From the IMG/VR virus record IMGVR_UViG_3300030331_002347, positions 1 to 30,030 of that record: DNA of 30,030 bases. One strand, 5' to 3'. The notes under the pieces were generated by a model. It made no database searches and was not told the DNA's origin. It worked only from the letters and a program-made list of their open reading frames with translations. This document shows, in pieces, positions 14,808 through 20,539 of this stretch. Every line of letters starts with the position of its first letter. Within the stretch, counting starts at the first letter, position 1. The stretch comes from a virus. Position numbers and translations under genes: made by a program.

Positions 14808-15020
14808 ATGAAAAACAAAACAGATACGGTGTGGGCCGTTATGTGTCCCGCTTGGGGCACCGTGATTAGCCTATATTCCACCAAAGAATTAGCGGATATC
14901 TCTGCTTCAATCATGAGCGCCGAAACGGACACCTTGCACGACGTGAAAGAGTTCGAAATCTTTTCGAGCCTAGAACCTAAGGTTGCCCTTGGCGAAACTC
15001 AACTAGAGTTGGATGTATGA
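14808..15020 (+). CDS. Small acidic protein upstream of the endolysin
   Basis: A 70-aa protein with a strand-like start (TVWAVMCPAWGTVISLYST), a helix (KELADISASIMSAETDTL) and a C-terminal acidic part (EFEIFSSLEPKVALGETQLE). No family is recognised and it has no membrane segment. Its stop overlaps the amidase start as ATGA (15017-15020), so the two are probably co-translated. Confidence 0.6.
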   Translation: MKNKTDTVWAVMCPAWGTVISLYSTKELADISASIMSAETDTLHDVKEFEIFSSLEPKVALGETQLELDV

Positions 15021-15691
15021 ATAAAAGTAAGACAGAAACTATTTCTGAGTTAAACAGGGCCATAAGGATTCTTGAGCAAACAAGGGATTCTCTTTTGCCT
15101 TCTCTGAAGCCCAAAAATTTCGAAGGCAGGAGGTTAGCTATTTGCGTTGGACATAGCAGGGCGGACGACGATGGGGCTACGGCTCCGGGAGGAGTTAATG
15201 AATACGCATTCAACAAGCCGATCGCCCACGCAGTGAAGGCAAACCTTGAGGCTCTTGGGTGTGATGTTCTAGCTGTTGATCGTTACGAAGGGAATGATTA
15301 CACATCTGCTATGAAATGGCTTGCTCCCGTTGTCTCTCAGTTTGGAGCCGAGGCTGTTATTGAGCTGCATTTCAACAGTGCGGAAGATCGCTCTGCAACT
15401 GGCTTTGAGACACTAATTGCAGGAAGCCAGCGGGGAACCATCCTTGGTAACTGTTTGCAGGGATCAATGGCTGAGTTGTTTACCGGAGAACCAGACAGGG
15501 GCGTAAAGGTTGTGCGTAGCAGATCCGAAAGAGGCGGGGCTTTTCTTTATATAAACAAACCACCAGCTGCTATTCTAGAGCCCTTTTTTGCGAGCAACGC
15601 AGGATCTTGGGACACCTACAAGGACCGGCGAGATGACATAGCTCACGCCTATACCATGGGACTTATTAGTTATCTTGAGAAGGTATCATAA
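15017..15691 (+). CDS. N-acetylmuramoyl-L-alanine amidase endolysin (Amidase_3-like)
   Basis: A 224-aa zinc amidase that cleaves the lactyl-peptide bond of peptidoglycan. The Amidase_3 signature is complete: H46 in CVGHS, E62 in GGVNEYAFN, H118 in IELHFNS as metal ligands, and catalytic E188 in AAILEPFF. Residues 1-32 form a short amphipathic helix ahead of the domain, and there is no signal peptide, so release would need the holin. T7 lysozyme (gp3.5) is an unrelated Amidase_2 enzyme that also inhibits the RNA polymerase; here a different amidase family sits upstream of the RNA polymerase gene. Whether it also regulates the polymerase is not visible. Confidence 0.92.
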   Translation: MNKSKTETISELNRAIRILEQTRDSLLPSLKPKNFEGRRLAICVGHSRADDDGATAPGGVNEYAFNKPIAHAVKANLEALGCDVLAVDRYEGNDYTSAMKWLAPVVSQFGAEAVIELHFNSAEDRSATGFETLIAGSQRGTILGNCLQGSMAELFTGEPDRGVKVVRSRSERGGAFLYINKPPAAILEPFFASNAGSWDTYKDRRDDIAHAYTMGLISYLEKVS

Positions 15692-15707: not shown

Positions 15708-16745
15708 ATGCCTATACGAGCAAACAAGAACAAGTGGTTGGCAGACATCATGCTTGATCGCATTCGATATCGTAAACAATTCGACACTGTAGAGGAGGCT
15801 CAAGTCTTCGAAGCAGAACTCCGTAAAAGAAACAAGCTAGGGGAGCCGATTGATGCACTGATAGAAACTAAGGAGACCAGTCCAACGGTTACTTTTGGCG
15901 ACATAAGTGACAAGACGTTTGCCCGTTATTGGGCTGGTAGTAAAAACGAAGAGCAGTGTATCAGTAACATGAAGATCCTGGAGGAGTTCTTTGGATCAGA
16001 GACTCCTATAAAGGACATCACAGTTCACCGAATAGATGATTTTATAGGTCACCTTCAGTCCCTCAACAGAGCGCCCGCTACTATCAATCAGAAGCTTGCA
16101 AGTCTCTCAAAGATCATCCGGTTTGCCCACGAACGGGGCTACCTAGAAACCAAGCCAAGGATTGAGAAAGTTACTCAGCCTAGCAACGAAAGGCTTGTTT
16201 TCTTTGATTACGATGTAGAAGCAGACATCCTTGACTATCTATCAGACAACGAACCAGCCTTTTTTGATTGGTTTATCTTTGCAATAGACACCGGAATACG
16301 ACCGGGAGAGATGGAATTACTTACAAAAAGGTCTTTCCGAAGAGATCCAGTTCTTGGATTGGTGGTGGATGTAAGAGAGGTGAAGAACACTGCAGGAACA
16401 TCAGAGCAGCGCACGATCCCACTTACAGAGAGGGCAGTGAGTGCTGTGAGGAGACAGATGCGAGACACTGACCACCCATTTGGAACGTGGACAGAAGACG
16501 CCCGCCGGATTGTTTGGAAAAAGGTCCGAAAAAATGTAGATATGGACCCTGACTTAGTTCCTTATTGTTGTAGGCACACCACCGCTACCCGACTCGTTCA
16601 ACAGGGGGTCAACCTCAAAGCTATCCAGCAATGGATGGGTCACAAGACGTTAGATATGACGCTCAAGTATGTGAAGTTAGTTCCGACAGATCTTATCTTT
16701 GGAAAGAACGCCCTTGAGAAACCACAGCACGAACGAGTCGCATGA
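15708..16745 (+). CDS. int: Tyrosine integrase
   Basis: A 345-aa site-specific recombinase. The N-terminal 45 residues (basic, WLADIMLDRIRYRKQF) look like an arm-site binding domain. Residues about 60-150 are the SAM-like core-binding domain (TINQKLASLSKIIRFAHERG). The catalytic set is R198 in GIRPGE, K226, R289 in PYCCRHT, H312 in MGHKT and the nucleophile Y321 in LKYVKL. The first His of the HxxR box is Tyr here (Y286), a variation seen in other phage integrases. Integrases in the same place, before the RNA polymerase, occur in some marine T7-like phages and imply a possible lysogenic state. I see no repressor or clear attP. The stop overlaps the next gene as ATGA. Confidence 0.95.
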   Translation: MPIRANKNKWLADIMLDRIRYRKQFDTVEEAQVFEAELRKRNKLGEPIDALIETKETSPTVTFGDISDKTFARYWAGSKNEEQCISNMKILEEFFGSETPIKDITVHRIDDFIGHLQSLNRAPATINQKLASLSKIIRFAHERGYLETKPRIEKVTQPSNERLVFFDYDVEADILDYLSDNEPAFFDWFIFAIDTGIRPGEMELLTKRSFRRDPVLGLVVDVREVKNTAGTSEQRTIPLTERAVSAVRRQMRDTDHPFGTWTEDARRIVWKKVRKNVDMDPDLVPYCCRHTTATRLVQQGVNLKAIQQWMGHKTLDMTLKYVKLVPTDLIFGKNALEKPQHERVA

Positions 16746-17029: not shown

Positions 17030-19459
17030 ATGGAAGTCCCTCTTACACAAGAAGAACTGAACGAAGACATGACTATGATTGGGGTCGGAAGATATCGGTC
17101 TCACACCGCGCAGGCCAAGGCTAGGGAGGGGGAGGGTGATACCAAGTATGGCCAGAGATTGATGCGAGCAGCTCTTCCAAAGTTTGCCAAGGGGATTGAA
17201 GACATGATTAACGGTTGGAATCACGCCAACAAATCAAGATGGCAACATGACCTGATGGATATGAAGCCAGAGGTGATTGGGTTTATTGCCTTGAGGAGTT
17301 GCCTTGATCGGATCACAGCACGCAAGACGATGAACAGCCTTGCCTGTTTTGTTGGGGCTAGAATTGAGGATCAAGTGAGGTGTGACTTCCTTGTTAAGCA
17401 TTCAGAAAAAGGGGAAGGGATAATCCTTGGTGCAAAGAGACGCAAGAAGGCTGGCGTGAATCACATACGGACACACGTACGCCGCTCCATGATGCACGAA
17501 GCCAACAAGGGACTGATGGAGGCCTTTGATGCGTGGACGCAAAGAGACAGAGCAAACTGTGGAGCTTGGCTTGTTGAGCTGTTGAGGGACTGCACTGGAC
17601 TGATTGAATACGTATACATTCAACAGAAGGCAGGACGCAAAAGGGCAACAAGATTTGTAGTGGCTACACAAACGACCCTTGATTGGGTGGAGAACTTTAA
17701 CACAGACAGAGAGTTACTTGAGCCTTTCTGGCTTCCAACAGCAGAAACACCAAGAGAGTGGGAGAACATATGGGATGGTGGGTATGATACAGCAGGAACA
17801 ACGCTACCCAAGCTGCCCTTCATAAAGACAAGAAATATGGAGCACCTACGGGAAGCACCAGCCGTTATTTCTGAGCCAATGGAGGCTTGCAATCTTATCC
17901 AGCAGACACCTTGGAGGGTGAACAGTGAGGTTCTTGATGTTACAAGGTGGGCTTGGGAGAACTCTCTTGAGATCACAGGCTTTCCATCGAGAGAAGACGA
18001 GACGCTACCACCATTTTCAAAAGCAATCCATGAAAACAAAGAGGCACTGACAAGGTGGAAGATGATGGCTGCTGGTGTTTACAAAAGAAACGCATCCACG
18101 AAATCCAGAAGGCTACTTGTGGGCAAGGTGCTTTATTTAGCTGACAAGATGAGGGCCACCAGGTTCTTTTATCCAAGCAACTGTGACTTCAGAGGTAGGG
18201 TCTACAATATCCCTAGTTTTCTGGGCATTCAGGGGCCTGACATGTGCCGTGGGCTTTTGAGGTTCTTTCGTGGTGAGAAGGTAAAAACAAACGAAGCCTA
18301 CAGGTGGCTTGCGATTCACGGGGCGAACACATGGGGTTACGACAAGGTCACTTTGGACAAGCGCGTAGAGTGGGCAAACGACTTTGCAAAGGATGCACAA
18401 AGAATAGCAGCCAATCCAAAAAAAGAACTCCTTTGGACTGAAGCAGACAAACCATTTCAGTTTCTTGGTTGGTGTTTTGAGTGGGCCAAGCTGACATCTA
18501 CAGGAAAGCTTGAGACTTTTCTTCCGGTGTCTATGGATGCGAGTAACAACGGCTTGCAGATTCTTTCAATGCTTATTCGGGACCCGTATGGAATGAGTGC
18601 AACCAATGTGCTTCCTACAGAGACACCAGCAGACATCTACAAGGTGGTAGCAGAGAGGGTAGAGGCGTATCTCAGAAAGGATGCTAGTGAAGGACGAGTG
18701 TTCTCAAAGGAGTGGCTTCAGTTTGGAATCACTAGGTCAACATGCAAGCGTCCTGTGATGTGTTACAGCTACGGGCTGACTAGCTACAGTAACAGGGCTT
18801 ATGTTGTGGAGTGGTTCGAGGATGAGATCCATGACAGAAAAAGAACGAGTCCATTTGATCCAAGAGAAAAGATTATGGCAACAAACTATCTTGCAACACT
18901 TGTTTGGAGGGGTATCGAGGAGGTGCTTGAGAAACCAAAAGAGGTCATGCAGTGGTTCCAACAGTGCAGCCGATTGATAAGCGACAAGCAACGCCCTTTG
19001 TTTTGGAATAGCCCAAGTGGATTTCCTGTGGTGCAGGATTACAAGCAGCTTCACAGCAAACGAGTAAAGACATGGGTGTCAGGCGAGGCAACTTGGATTC
19101 GCTTTAACGAAGAAAGCGACAAGATATGCAGGAGGAAACAAGCCAACGGAGTTAGTCCTAACTTTGTTCATGCCCTTGATGCTTCTGCTCTTCACAAGAC
19201 TGTAGTTAGGGCCAACCGGGAGGCAGGGATCTACGATTTCGCAATGGTGCATGACAGCTATGGAACACATGCAACAAAGTGTGATGACCTCTCGCGAATA
19301 CTTAGGGATGTCTTTGTAAATATGTTTGAGGTTGACTTACTATCTGATTGGGCTAAACAACTGTCTGTTCAGCATCCTGACATTTCATTTCCATCTCCAC
19401 CTCAGTTTGGAGAGGCTAAAATAACAAAGATCCATGACTCAACTTACTTCTTTAGCTAG
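17030..19459 (+). CDS. T7-like single-subunit DNA-directed RNA polymerase
   Basis: An 809-aa polymerase (T7: 883 aa) that would transcribe the phage middle and late genes from its own promoters. Active-site residues are all present: D503 in SMDASNNGLQ (T7 D537), K573 and Y581 in CKRPVMCYSYG (T7 K631, Y639), and D742 in VHDSYGT (T7 D812). The FRGRVY block that precedes the palm domain and the NFVHALDAS.L.KTV block before the last aspartate also match. The C-terminus ends in aromatic YFFS, comparable to the FAFA foot in T7. It starts in an A-rich leader 21 bp after a terminator and its 3' end overlaps the methyltransferase gene by 26 bp. The N-terminal promoter-recognition part is shorter than in T7. 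Confidence 0.97.
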   Translation: MEVPLTQEELNEDMTMIGVGRYRSHTAQAKAREGEGDTKYGQRLMRAALPKFAKGIEDMINGWNHANKSRWQHDLMDMKPEVIGFIALRSCLDRITARKTMNSLACFVGARIEDQVRCDFLVKHSEKGEGIILGAKRRKKAGVNHIRTHVRRSMMHEANKGLMEAFDAWTQRDRANCGAWLVELLRDCTGLIEYVYIQQKAGRKRATRFVVATQTTLDWVENFNTDRELLEPFWLPTAETPREWENIWDGGYDTAGTTLPKLPFIKTRNMEHLREAPAVISEPMEACNLIQQTPWRVNSEVLDVTRWAWENSLEITGFPSREDETLPPFSKAIHENKEALTRWKMMAAGVYKRNASTKSRRLLVGKVLYLADKMRATRFFYPSNCDFRGRVYNIPSFLGIQGPDMCRGLLRFFRGEKVKTNEAYRWLAIHGANTWGYDKVTLDKRVEWANDFAKDAQRIAANPKKELLWTEADKPFQFLGWCFEWAKLTSTGKLETFLPVSMDASNNGLQILSMLIRDPYGMSATNVLPTETPADIYKVVAERVEAYLRKDASEGRVFSKEWLQFGITRSTCKRPVMCYSYGLTSYSNRAYVVEWFEDEIHDRKRTSPFDPREKIMATNYLATLVWRGIEEVLEKPKEVMQWFQQCSRLISDKQRPLFWNSPSGFPVVQDYKQLHSKRVKTWVSGEATWIRFNEESDKICRRKQANGVSPNFVHALDASALHKTVVRANREAGIYDFAMVHDSYGTHATKCDDLSRILRDVFVNMFEVDLLSDWAKQLSVQHPDISFPSPPQFGEAKITKIHDSTYFFS

Positions 19460-20309
19460 AGATAATGATAGTCATACCCAAACAGTTACACACCTCTCAG
19501 TTTGTTCAGGATATGACGGACTTGGGCTTGGACTCGCAAGAGTTTTCGGAGCAATCAGTCCAGTGTTTCATGTGGAGATCGAAGCCTTCGCCGTGGCAAA
19601 CTTGGTTGCGAAGATGGAAACGAATCAAATGGCTCCAGCTCCTATCTGGACGGACCTTAAAACCTTCCCATTCCAAGAGTTTCGTAACAAGGTGGACATT
19701 CTCTCTGCCGGTTACCCCTGCCAACCCTTTAGCACTAATGGAAAGCGCAAAGGTAAAAAAGACGGAAGAGCTTTGTGGTGGCACATTGCAAATGGAATTT
19801 GGGTTTGCAGACCATCCCTTGTGTTCCTCGAAAACGTCGAAGGACACATCACCCTCGGACTTAGAGAAGTCCTTAGCGATTTGGAAACGCTTGGTTACAA
19901 AACGGCGTGGGGAATATTCTCAGCGTCTGAAGTTGGCGCACCCCACAGAAGAAAAAGAGTCTTCGTATTGGCCCACACCAACGACAGCGGAAGCAATGAA
20001 GATTTCAAACAATCCAAACTTTGGGCAGCTAGGACTCAGCAACCATCCAAAGATTCATGGCTTCGAGGTGGACAGGGAGAAGCTACACAAAGACAGGAAG
20101 GGAGATACAAAAGCGAAATGTTCCCAGCAACCCCAGAAGGAGAACCCAGAGAGTGGGAAGTGTCGCGGACAGTTGAGCGTAGAGTTCGTGGAGCAGCTCA
20201 TGGGGGTGACTGTAGGGTGGACAGACTTCTCATGCTGGGAAACGGAGTCGTTCCTGCCCAAGCAGAAAAAGCATTTAGAACTTTAGCCTATGAACTATGG
20301 GGACAATAG
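19434..20309 (+). CDS. C5-cytosine DNA methyltransferase
   Basis: A 291-aa orphan methylase. Motif I is SVCSGYDGLGLGL (residues about 22-34), motif IV is GYPCQPFS with catalytic C96, motif VI is ENV at 133-135, motif VIII is GAPHRRKRVFVLA (168-180), and motif X is RLLMLGNGVVPAQAEKAF near the C-terminus (GN at 269-270). The stretch between motifs VIII and X, about 80 residues, is a short target-recognition region. No restriction partner is present, so it probably protects phage DNA against host restriction or alters host gene expression. The start overlaps the RNA polymerase gene by 26 bp. A long open frame in another phase overlaps nearly all of it. Confidence 0.94.
   Translation: MTQLTSLARDNDSHTQTVTHLSVCSGYDGLGLGLARVFGAISPVFHVEIEAFAVANLVAKMETNQMAPAPIWTDLKTFPFQEFRNKVDILSAGYPCQPFSTNGKRKGKKDGRALWWHIANGIWVCRPSLVFLENVEGHITLGLREVLSDLETLGYKTAWGIFSASEVGAPHRRKRVFVLAHTNDSGSNEDFKQSKLWAARTQQPSKDSWLRGGQGEATQRQEGRYKSEMFPATPEGEPREWEVSRTVERRVRGAAHGGDCRVDRLLMLGNGVVPAQAEKAFRTLAYELWGQ
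19465..20286 (+). CDS. Out-of-frame ORF inside the methyltransferase gene with methylase-like motifs
   Basis: A 273-codon frame runs in the +1 phase across nearly the whole methyltransferase gene without a stop. Its C-terminal third reads SSYWPTPTTAEAM (W at 19969), then LSVEFVEQLMGVTVGWTDF (20176-20229) and CWETESF. I recognise this motif chain (WPTP..., VE.LMG...GWTD) from the C-terminal parts of phage cytosine-methylase-related proteins. In the main frame the same bases encode motif X (LGNGVVP). Either both frames are translated, or this phase is the remnant or source of a variant C-terminus. The start and expression are uncertain; a shadow cannot be excluded. Confidence 0.4.
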   Translation: MIVIPKQLHTSQFVQDMTDLGLDSQEFSEQSVQCFMWRSKPSPWQTWLRRWKRIKWLQLLSGRTLKPSHSKSFVTRWTFSLPVTPANPLALMESAKVKKTEELCGGTLQMEFGFADHPLCSSKTSKDTSPSDLEKSLAIWKRLVTKRRGEYSQRLKLAHPTEEKESSYWPTPTTAEAMKISNNPNFGQLGLSNHPKIHGFEVDREKLHKDRKGDTKAKCSQQPQKENPESGKCRGQLSVEFVEQLMGVTVGWTDFSCWETESFLPKQKKHLEL

Positions 20310-20539
20310 ATAAGTCAACAAATGAGCTGATCAATGGGTGGAATAGTTTAGCCCAAGCAGCAGTAAACTTTGGATTACTTAAAAAAGCCCGCGATGATGG
20401 AGAAGACATTGACCCACAAGCATTTGATTTCAGTGAGAAAGAATTAGTAACCAGCGCAAGATTGTTTGCAATGCTTTGCGATGTTTACATTACAGACAAA
20501 CCAAAAAACAACGAAAGGAAAGATAACGATGGCAAATAA
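20297..20539 (+). CDS. Small acidic helical protein, unknown function
   Basis: An 80-aa protein overlapping the methyltransferase end by 13 bp and the SSB start by 11 bp. The sequence is helical with a mixed-charge C-terminus: STNELINGWNSLAQAAVNFG, then FDFSEKELVTSARLFAMLCD and a tail rich in Lys, Asn, Asp and Glu. No family is recognised. Being wedged between overlapping replication genes makes it probably real and co-translated. Confidence 0.65.
   Translation: MGTIDKSTNELINGWNSLAQAAVNFGLLKKARDDGEDIDPQAFDFSEKELVTSARLFAMLCDVYITDKPKNNERKDNDGK

Follow-up and report, generated by a model that had tools for sequence, protein, structure and literature searches.

Two reading frames at the methyltransferase locus

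The DNA analysed here, a viral contig of 30 kb (30,030 nucleotides; IMG/VR record IMGVR_UViG_3300030331_002347), is called the window, and an earlier observation on it concerned the methyltransferase gene at 19434–20309. This gene, the frame-0 open reading frame (ORF) or alpha, lies on the plus strand and encodes a C5-methyltransferase of 291 residues with motifs I–VIII and motif X (PF00145, E 4e-32; PHROG 363, E 1.5e-56). On the same strand, a second ORF of 273 residues, beta, is open in the +1 frame at 19465–20286 and spans nearly the whole frame-0 ORF, with an overlap of about 820 nucleotides. The third frame contains 21 stops in the same stretch. Judging from the sequences of the window and its relatives, the +1 frame is strongly supported as a real overlapping gene. 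We further consider it quite likely that the locus encodes a two-polypeptide C5-methyltransferase from two almost fully overlapping genes, with frame 0 providing the large domain and +1 the small domain.

The first-pass annotation had noticed methylase-type motifs in both frames, and this is what we find. Frame 0 carries PCQPF, ENV, RRKRV and LGNGVVP, and its PF00145 motifs I, IV (PCQ), VI (ENV), VIII and X follow in the expected order. Motifs I–VIII occupy the plus-strand block 19488–19967, and the motif X segment RVDRLLMLGNGVVPAQAEKAFRTLAYELWGQ is found at 20214–20306. In the +1 frame, WPTPTTAEAM, VEQLMG..GWTDF and WETESF follow one another in that order. The +1 protein begins with an N-terminal part and continues with a conserved helix (KSLAIWKRLVTKRRGEYSQRLKLAH, residues 130–157, 19852–19935), which is predicted by AlphaFold with a mean predicted local distance difference test (pLDDT) score of 84–94. 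One to several W(P/A/G)TP modules follow, in the window the recognition module WPTPTTAEAMKISNNPNFGQLGLSNHP... at 19969–20169. The motif IX-like segment QLSVEFVEQLMGVTVGWTDFSCWE (20170–20241), of the type LNPxWVExLMGxPxGWT, is the best-conserved part of the +1 family and overlaps the frame-0 motif X segment with its end. A database search with the +1 product, as proposed earlier, returns PHROG 1008 'DNA methyltransferase' (E 1.5e-12), which is matched by the +1 products of all 72 relatives tested; Pfam and NCBIfam gave no match for the +1 product.

Homologous loci were gathered separately via frame 0 and via the +1 product, giving 160 unique motif I–VIII blocks. Of these, 100 were obtained by searching with frame 0 or from annotated phage records; the +1 query also matched a few of them. 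The blocks of these 100 loci contain no +1 stop in 16,195 codons and 787 stops in +2. By 200 synonymous codon permutations, a mean of 245 and a minimum of 215 +1 stops would be expected, and 618 with the codon usage of flanking genes. In the recognition region of 145 loci (20,648 codons), neither frame 0 nor +1 contains a stop, and +2 contains 1,108. Since the permutations predict 649 stops in frame 0 and 288 in +1, both frames are kept open here. Of 90 further bacterial, plasmid and phage loci, which were picked by +1 similarity, 80 lack a +1 stop in the motif I–VIII block. Frequent stops in the +1 phase of relatives, named in the first-pass annotation as evidence against its reading, do not occur, and +1 is stop-free throughout the close set.

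These counts bear on the possibility that +1 is a shadow frame, open merely from the codon composition of frame 0, with its database relatives representing mis-framed predictions. Frame-0 codon usage does lower the expected number of +1 stops, as the difference between the two expectations indicates, and every +1 homologue of the close set sits at the same overlapping locus. The observed zero nevertheless lies below the count in each single permutation, and +1 is retained in L031 and L105, two loci with an interrupted frame 0. Together with selection at +1 codon positions and the conserved starts described below, this makes a shadow frame exceedingly improbable. The synonymous permutation and codon-position tests led us to rule it out.

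Selection and start codons along the two frames

The phase of the overlap allows substitutions to reveal the protected frame, because the third base of a frame-0 codon is the second of a +1 codon, and the first base of a frame-0 codon is the third in +1. We compared independent pairs in which each locus was used once. In the motif I–VIII block, third-position change with respect to frame 0 is in excess in 67 of 67 pairs, showing that frame 0 is dominant. In the recognition region, change at frame-0 first positions (+1 third positions) is in excess in 46 of 48 pairs (p 8e-12), and dominance passes to +1. The window and its relative L003 illustrate this shift. Differences at frame-0 positions 1/2/3 amount to 14/8/28 in the block and to 20/3/5 in the recognition region, where module identity is 0.92 in +1 and 0.71 in frame 0. 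Site-class rates agree, with ratios of nonsynonymous to synonymous rates (dN/dS) in the recognition region of 0.14–0.22 for +1 and 0.59–0.91 for frame 0, so that frame 0 acts as near-neutral filler beneath the module. Where the +1 motif IX-like segment overlaps frame-0 motif X, dN/dS is mostly 0.1–0.5 and both frames are constrained. A comparison of synonymous-site variation in both frames had been suggested earlier; the codon-position tests find +1 under selection and dominant in the recognition region.

Constraint on +1 is not confined to this region. In the motif I–VIII block, SN/SS for +1 is 0.30 (0.26–0.35) vs 0.71 (0.62–0.84) for flanking genes, and this holds for both block halves. It therefore seems that the +1 protein is produced and needed over its entire length. 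Among the options raised in the first-pass annotation, a genuine overlapping gene is strongly supported: the +1 frame has no stop in the close set, purifying selection acts on it from end to end, and it has its own conserved ATG. A wrongly framed database family is disfavoured by the zero stops and the selection at +1 codon positions.

The starts of the two frames are closely linked in most relatives. Of 158 loci, 113 have an ATGTG fusion, with +1 starting at ATG and frame 0 at GTG, and another 29 have starts at most 11 nucleotides apart (142 together). A Shine-Dalgarno-like sequence lies upstream in 88 of the 142 loci with close or fused starts, and in 77 loci one GTG is the sole possible frame-0 start. 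The window differs. Its upstream neighbour is a T7-type RNA polymerase gene in the ORF table (17030–19459, plus strand; PF00940, E 2e-95), the 3' end of which overlaps the frame-0 start. The frame-0 ATG at 19434 lies within this 3' end, and the +1 ATG at 19465 is located 5 nucleotides past the polymerase stop codon, a position that would fit reinitiation after the polymerase stop. In the start regions of L012 and L182 the usual ATGTGG reads ATGTAG, leaving a stop at +1 codon 2 and no frame-0 GTG; this could reflect inactivation, a different start or amber recoding.

A frameshift-made alternative C-terminus had also been proposed for +1. In such a scheme, motifs I–VIII would be read in frame 0 and a programmed +1 slip near motif VIII would produce one chain with the catalytic part and the +1 recognition domain. 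The position of the +1 recognition module directly after motif VIII is in line with this. So are five loci (L031 at 1496–2374, L083, L087, L092 and L093) whose frame 0 stops short of motif X and whose +1 frame carries the recognition module, LMG..G and motif X, as a +1 shift would there yield a full enzyme. In the window and about 145 relatives, however, motif X lies in frame 0, and a fusion of this kind would be without it. A frameshift would need +1 only downstream of the shift point, but +1 is stop-free and constrained upstream of any such point, from the start region on, and this selection and openness ahead of motif VIII is what the proposal fails to explain. The conserved +1 ATG fused to the frame-0 start also argues against it, as does the openness of frame 0 across the recognition region, which is far greater than chance predicts, and we regard a programmed frameshift as unlikely.

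A candidate two-polypeptide enzyme in phages and prophages

Overlapping genes of this kind raise the question of how the two products share the work of a C5-methyltransferase. Frame 0 had been described as a complete enzyme. This is accurate for its motifs, including motif X, and does not extend to the recognition region, which is near-neutral and predicted to be disordered. Among relatives, C96, E133-N134-V135, R173/R175 and G269-N270 are invariant in frame 0. In the AlphaFold model, built from an alignment of 68 relatives with L036 left out, pLDDT exceeds 90 over most of residues 20–180 and reaches 94 over the motif X helix, and it falls below 50 at residues 205–228 and 246–267. By Foldseek, the model matches the fold of M.HhaI (E 4e-13) over approximately 183 columns. 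PF00145 enzymes are expected to have their own recognition domain between motifs VIII and X, and frame 0 has in its place a stretch with near-neutral dN/dS and mostly disordered sequence. Because the selected sequence here is that of +1, we read the frame-0 protein as one chain of a two-chain enzyme, the catalytic one, and not as a complete monomer. We equate it with the large domain and the +1 protein with the small one, since the catalytic core and motif X are modelled confidently, the linker is not, and motif X belongs to the large domain. Within the otherwise variable linker, the frame-0 consensus retains a PxRPGxxQxxWExPR-type element (here FPATPEGEPREWEVSRT, 20115–20171) with a nearly invariant W241, possibly a contact with the +1 protein.

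In the proposed arrangement, frame 0 would supply the large catalytic domain for S-adenosylmethionine binding and catalysis, with motifs I–VIII and the motif X helix packing on the same domain, and its disordered stretch would join the catalytic core to this helix. The second protein, starting in most relatives from almost the same ribosome-binding region through ATGTG, would contribute the small domain, with its target-recognition module or modules and the motif IX-like segment placed after a conserved N-terminal part. The two products would then associate, and the +1 protein, whose modules would vary and recombine among relatives, would set the sequence specificity. We infer the translation of the two proteins, their assembly and this role in specificity, along with a function in protecting phage DNA from host restriction. 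C5-methyltransferases that are split between motif VIII and the recognition domain, artificially or naturally, are reported to complement well and assemble (PMC5944983, PMC3404938), and the division between frame 0 and +1 is close to this split point.

Support for the role of +1 comes from enzymes that keep the same elements in other arrangements. In gp71 of Mycobacterium phage Madiba, a chain of 479 residues, motifs I–VIII, several LLPTP modules, MMGWPAGWVT and GNGVCP follow in one frame. In phages Catdawg, Eagle, Orcanus and Jarcob, the recognition, IX and X modules are found in a gene of their own, adjacent to the motif I–VIII gene or, mostly, overlapping part of it. By profile comparison, the +1 family matches Catdawg gp5 with E 2e-8, an alignment that includes the conserved helix. 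The segment LNPxWVExLMGxPxGWT stands at the expected place of motif IX, and single-chain relatives, Madiba gp71 among them, have it in one frame with motif X (22 aligned columns). From position and conservation in the sequences, we infer that LMGxPxGW represents motif IX and that the WPTP modules represent the recognition domain. The earlier guess that +1 concerns target recognition is supported by the selection on its modules in the recognition region and by their in-frame position in single-chain actinophage methyltransferases. In L201, L206, L207 and L208, from Mycobacterium and Arthrobacter phages, neighbouring or overlapping pairs are annotated as two 'DNA methylases' or methyltransferases; these pairs look like the catalytic and recognition halves of one enzyme.

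Several observations weigh against a two-polypeptide enzyme. The motif IX assignment has no Pfam match and rests on position and single-chain relatives; PF00145 stops short of the C-terminal part even in those relatives, so the profile cannot confirm it. No PDB sequence matches the +1 family, and the +1 protein modelled alone folds poorly (mean pLDDT 59); as expected for a low-confidence model, Foldseek found no match among viral structures. In the window, the starts are 31 nucleotides apart and the +1 ATG is preceded only by a weak Shine-Dalgarno-like AGAG. The +1 protein might be real without being part of a methyltransferase and instead be an overprinted phage product with a separate role, for example in anti-restriction or regulation. 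The missing Pfam and PDB matches would suit such a protein, as would its N-terminal part over motifs I–VI, which has no counterpart in single-chain methyltransferases. We nevertheless judge this improbable, given that LPTP units and LMG/MMGxPxGW occur between motifs VIII and X of single-chain actinophage enzymes and in separate beta genes, that no recognition domain, conserved or ordered, is present in frame 0 itself, and that the five variants with motif X in +1 link the +1 product to the enzyme.

The dual-frame layout is found in the window and at least 150 related loci in phages and prophages. It is present in Paenibacillus phage Bloom, where both ORFs are annotated as DNA cytosine methyltransferase, in an E. 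coli phage, an Acinetobacter phage, Klebsiella phage PIN1, Lacticaseibacillus phage R9.1 and others. Many bacterial genomes have it as well. In some loci (Bloom, R9.1, C72C1, ctgrD200) the +1 ORF is shorter and starts inside the motif I–VIII block. Modules are shared among otherwise differing loci in +1 only; the KISNxxNFGQxGLSNHP module of the window occurs in 8 loci with divergent frame 0. In L105 (1924–3244), frame-0 stops appear soon after motif VIII and the +1 modules are intact, including the KISN..GLSNHP module. It appears reasonably likely that these loci form a widespread phage and prophage class that is obligately dual-coded, with a catalytic frame and a +1 specificity frame whose synthesis is coupled by the fused ATGTG. 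Specificity would evolve by cassette swaps in the hidden frame, with the visible frame only kept open as a disordered linker to motif X.

The pair is among the longer and better-supported same-strand overlapping genes, and selection on it can be separated segment by segment. It offers a natural case in which one frame can exchange cassettes because the other is, at that place, a disordered linker. The overlap implies that many phage cytosine methyltransferases have their specificity part outside the annotated protein and that the 'recognition domain' of frame 0 is unsuited to target prediction. Gene callers would retain only half of a required pair, frame 0 in most records here and +1 in Klebsiella phage PIN1. 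In the latter (L200, 1405–2343), the name 'DNA methyltransferase' has been given to the +1-type recognition protein, and the frame with PCQPF and GNAIVP is unannotated.

Elsewhere on the contig, T7-type replication genes are present (RNA polymerase, single-stranded DNA-binding protein, endonuclease I, family A DNA polymerase), with a T7-type terminase and a tyrosine integrase. The RNA polymerase gene is preceded by this integrase (15708–16745) and an amidase (15017–15691), which point to a temperate T7-like podovirus. An ORF of 80 codons at 20297–20539, overlapping the end of the methyltransferase gene, has no Pfam match.

Comparison with known methyltransferases

Two-polypeptide C5-methyltransferases as such are already known. 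M.EcoHK31I (YGGCCR) consists of a large subunit with motifs I–VIII and X and a small subunit with motif IX, the predicted target-recognition domain being placed in the large one (Lee, Kam & Shaw 1995; PMC3404938). Compared by description, its motif split would be the same as that proposed for frame 0 and +1; in contrast, selection at our locus assigns the target-recognition domain to the +1 protein. The gene for the small subunit of M.EcoHK31I lies within that for the large one, in a different frame, and if this nesting holds, it is the closest precedent. Our locus differs in that the overlap is nearly complete, the starts are usually fused, and the layout is phage-borne and widespread.

M.AquI (CYCGRG) is a natural two-polypeptide enzyme with motifs I–VIII in alpha and IX–X in beta (PMC3404938). 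Similar to M.AquI, the polypeptides at our locus are divided after motif VIII. In contrast to it, the window has motif X in the first polypeptide, and one gene covers nearly all of the other. The five relatives with motif X in +1 share the placement of IX and X in the second polypeptide and are a natural M.AquI-like rearrangement. The actinophage enzymes (Madiba gp71; Catdawg gp6/gp5, Eagle gp78/gp77) share the order of motifs I–VIII, (L/W)PTP, LMG/MMGxPxGW and GNGVxP with our locus, whereas they use a single frame or shorter overlaps and carry motif X in the recognition-domain chain.

PHROG 1008 'DNA methyltransferase' is named by association, and the name masks that its +1 members lack catalytic motifs in their own frame. 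A phage methylase gene with an inserted homing endonuclease likewise yields a second product in another frame; here, the second frame would be the enzyme's own recognition part. Our literature search, with most subscription journals outside its coverage, found no description of this layout in phages. As far as we found, the new aspects are the scale, the near-complete overlap with fused starts, the recognition modules that are selected in +1 and near-neutral in frame 0, and the series leading from single-chain to split to coextensive genes.

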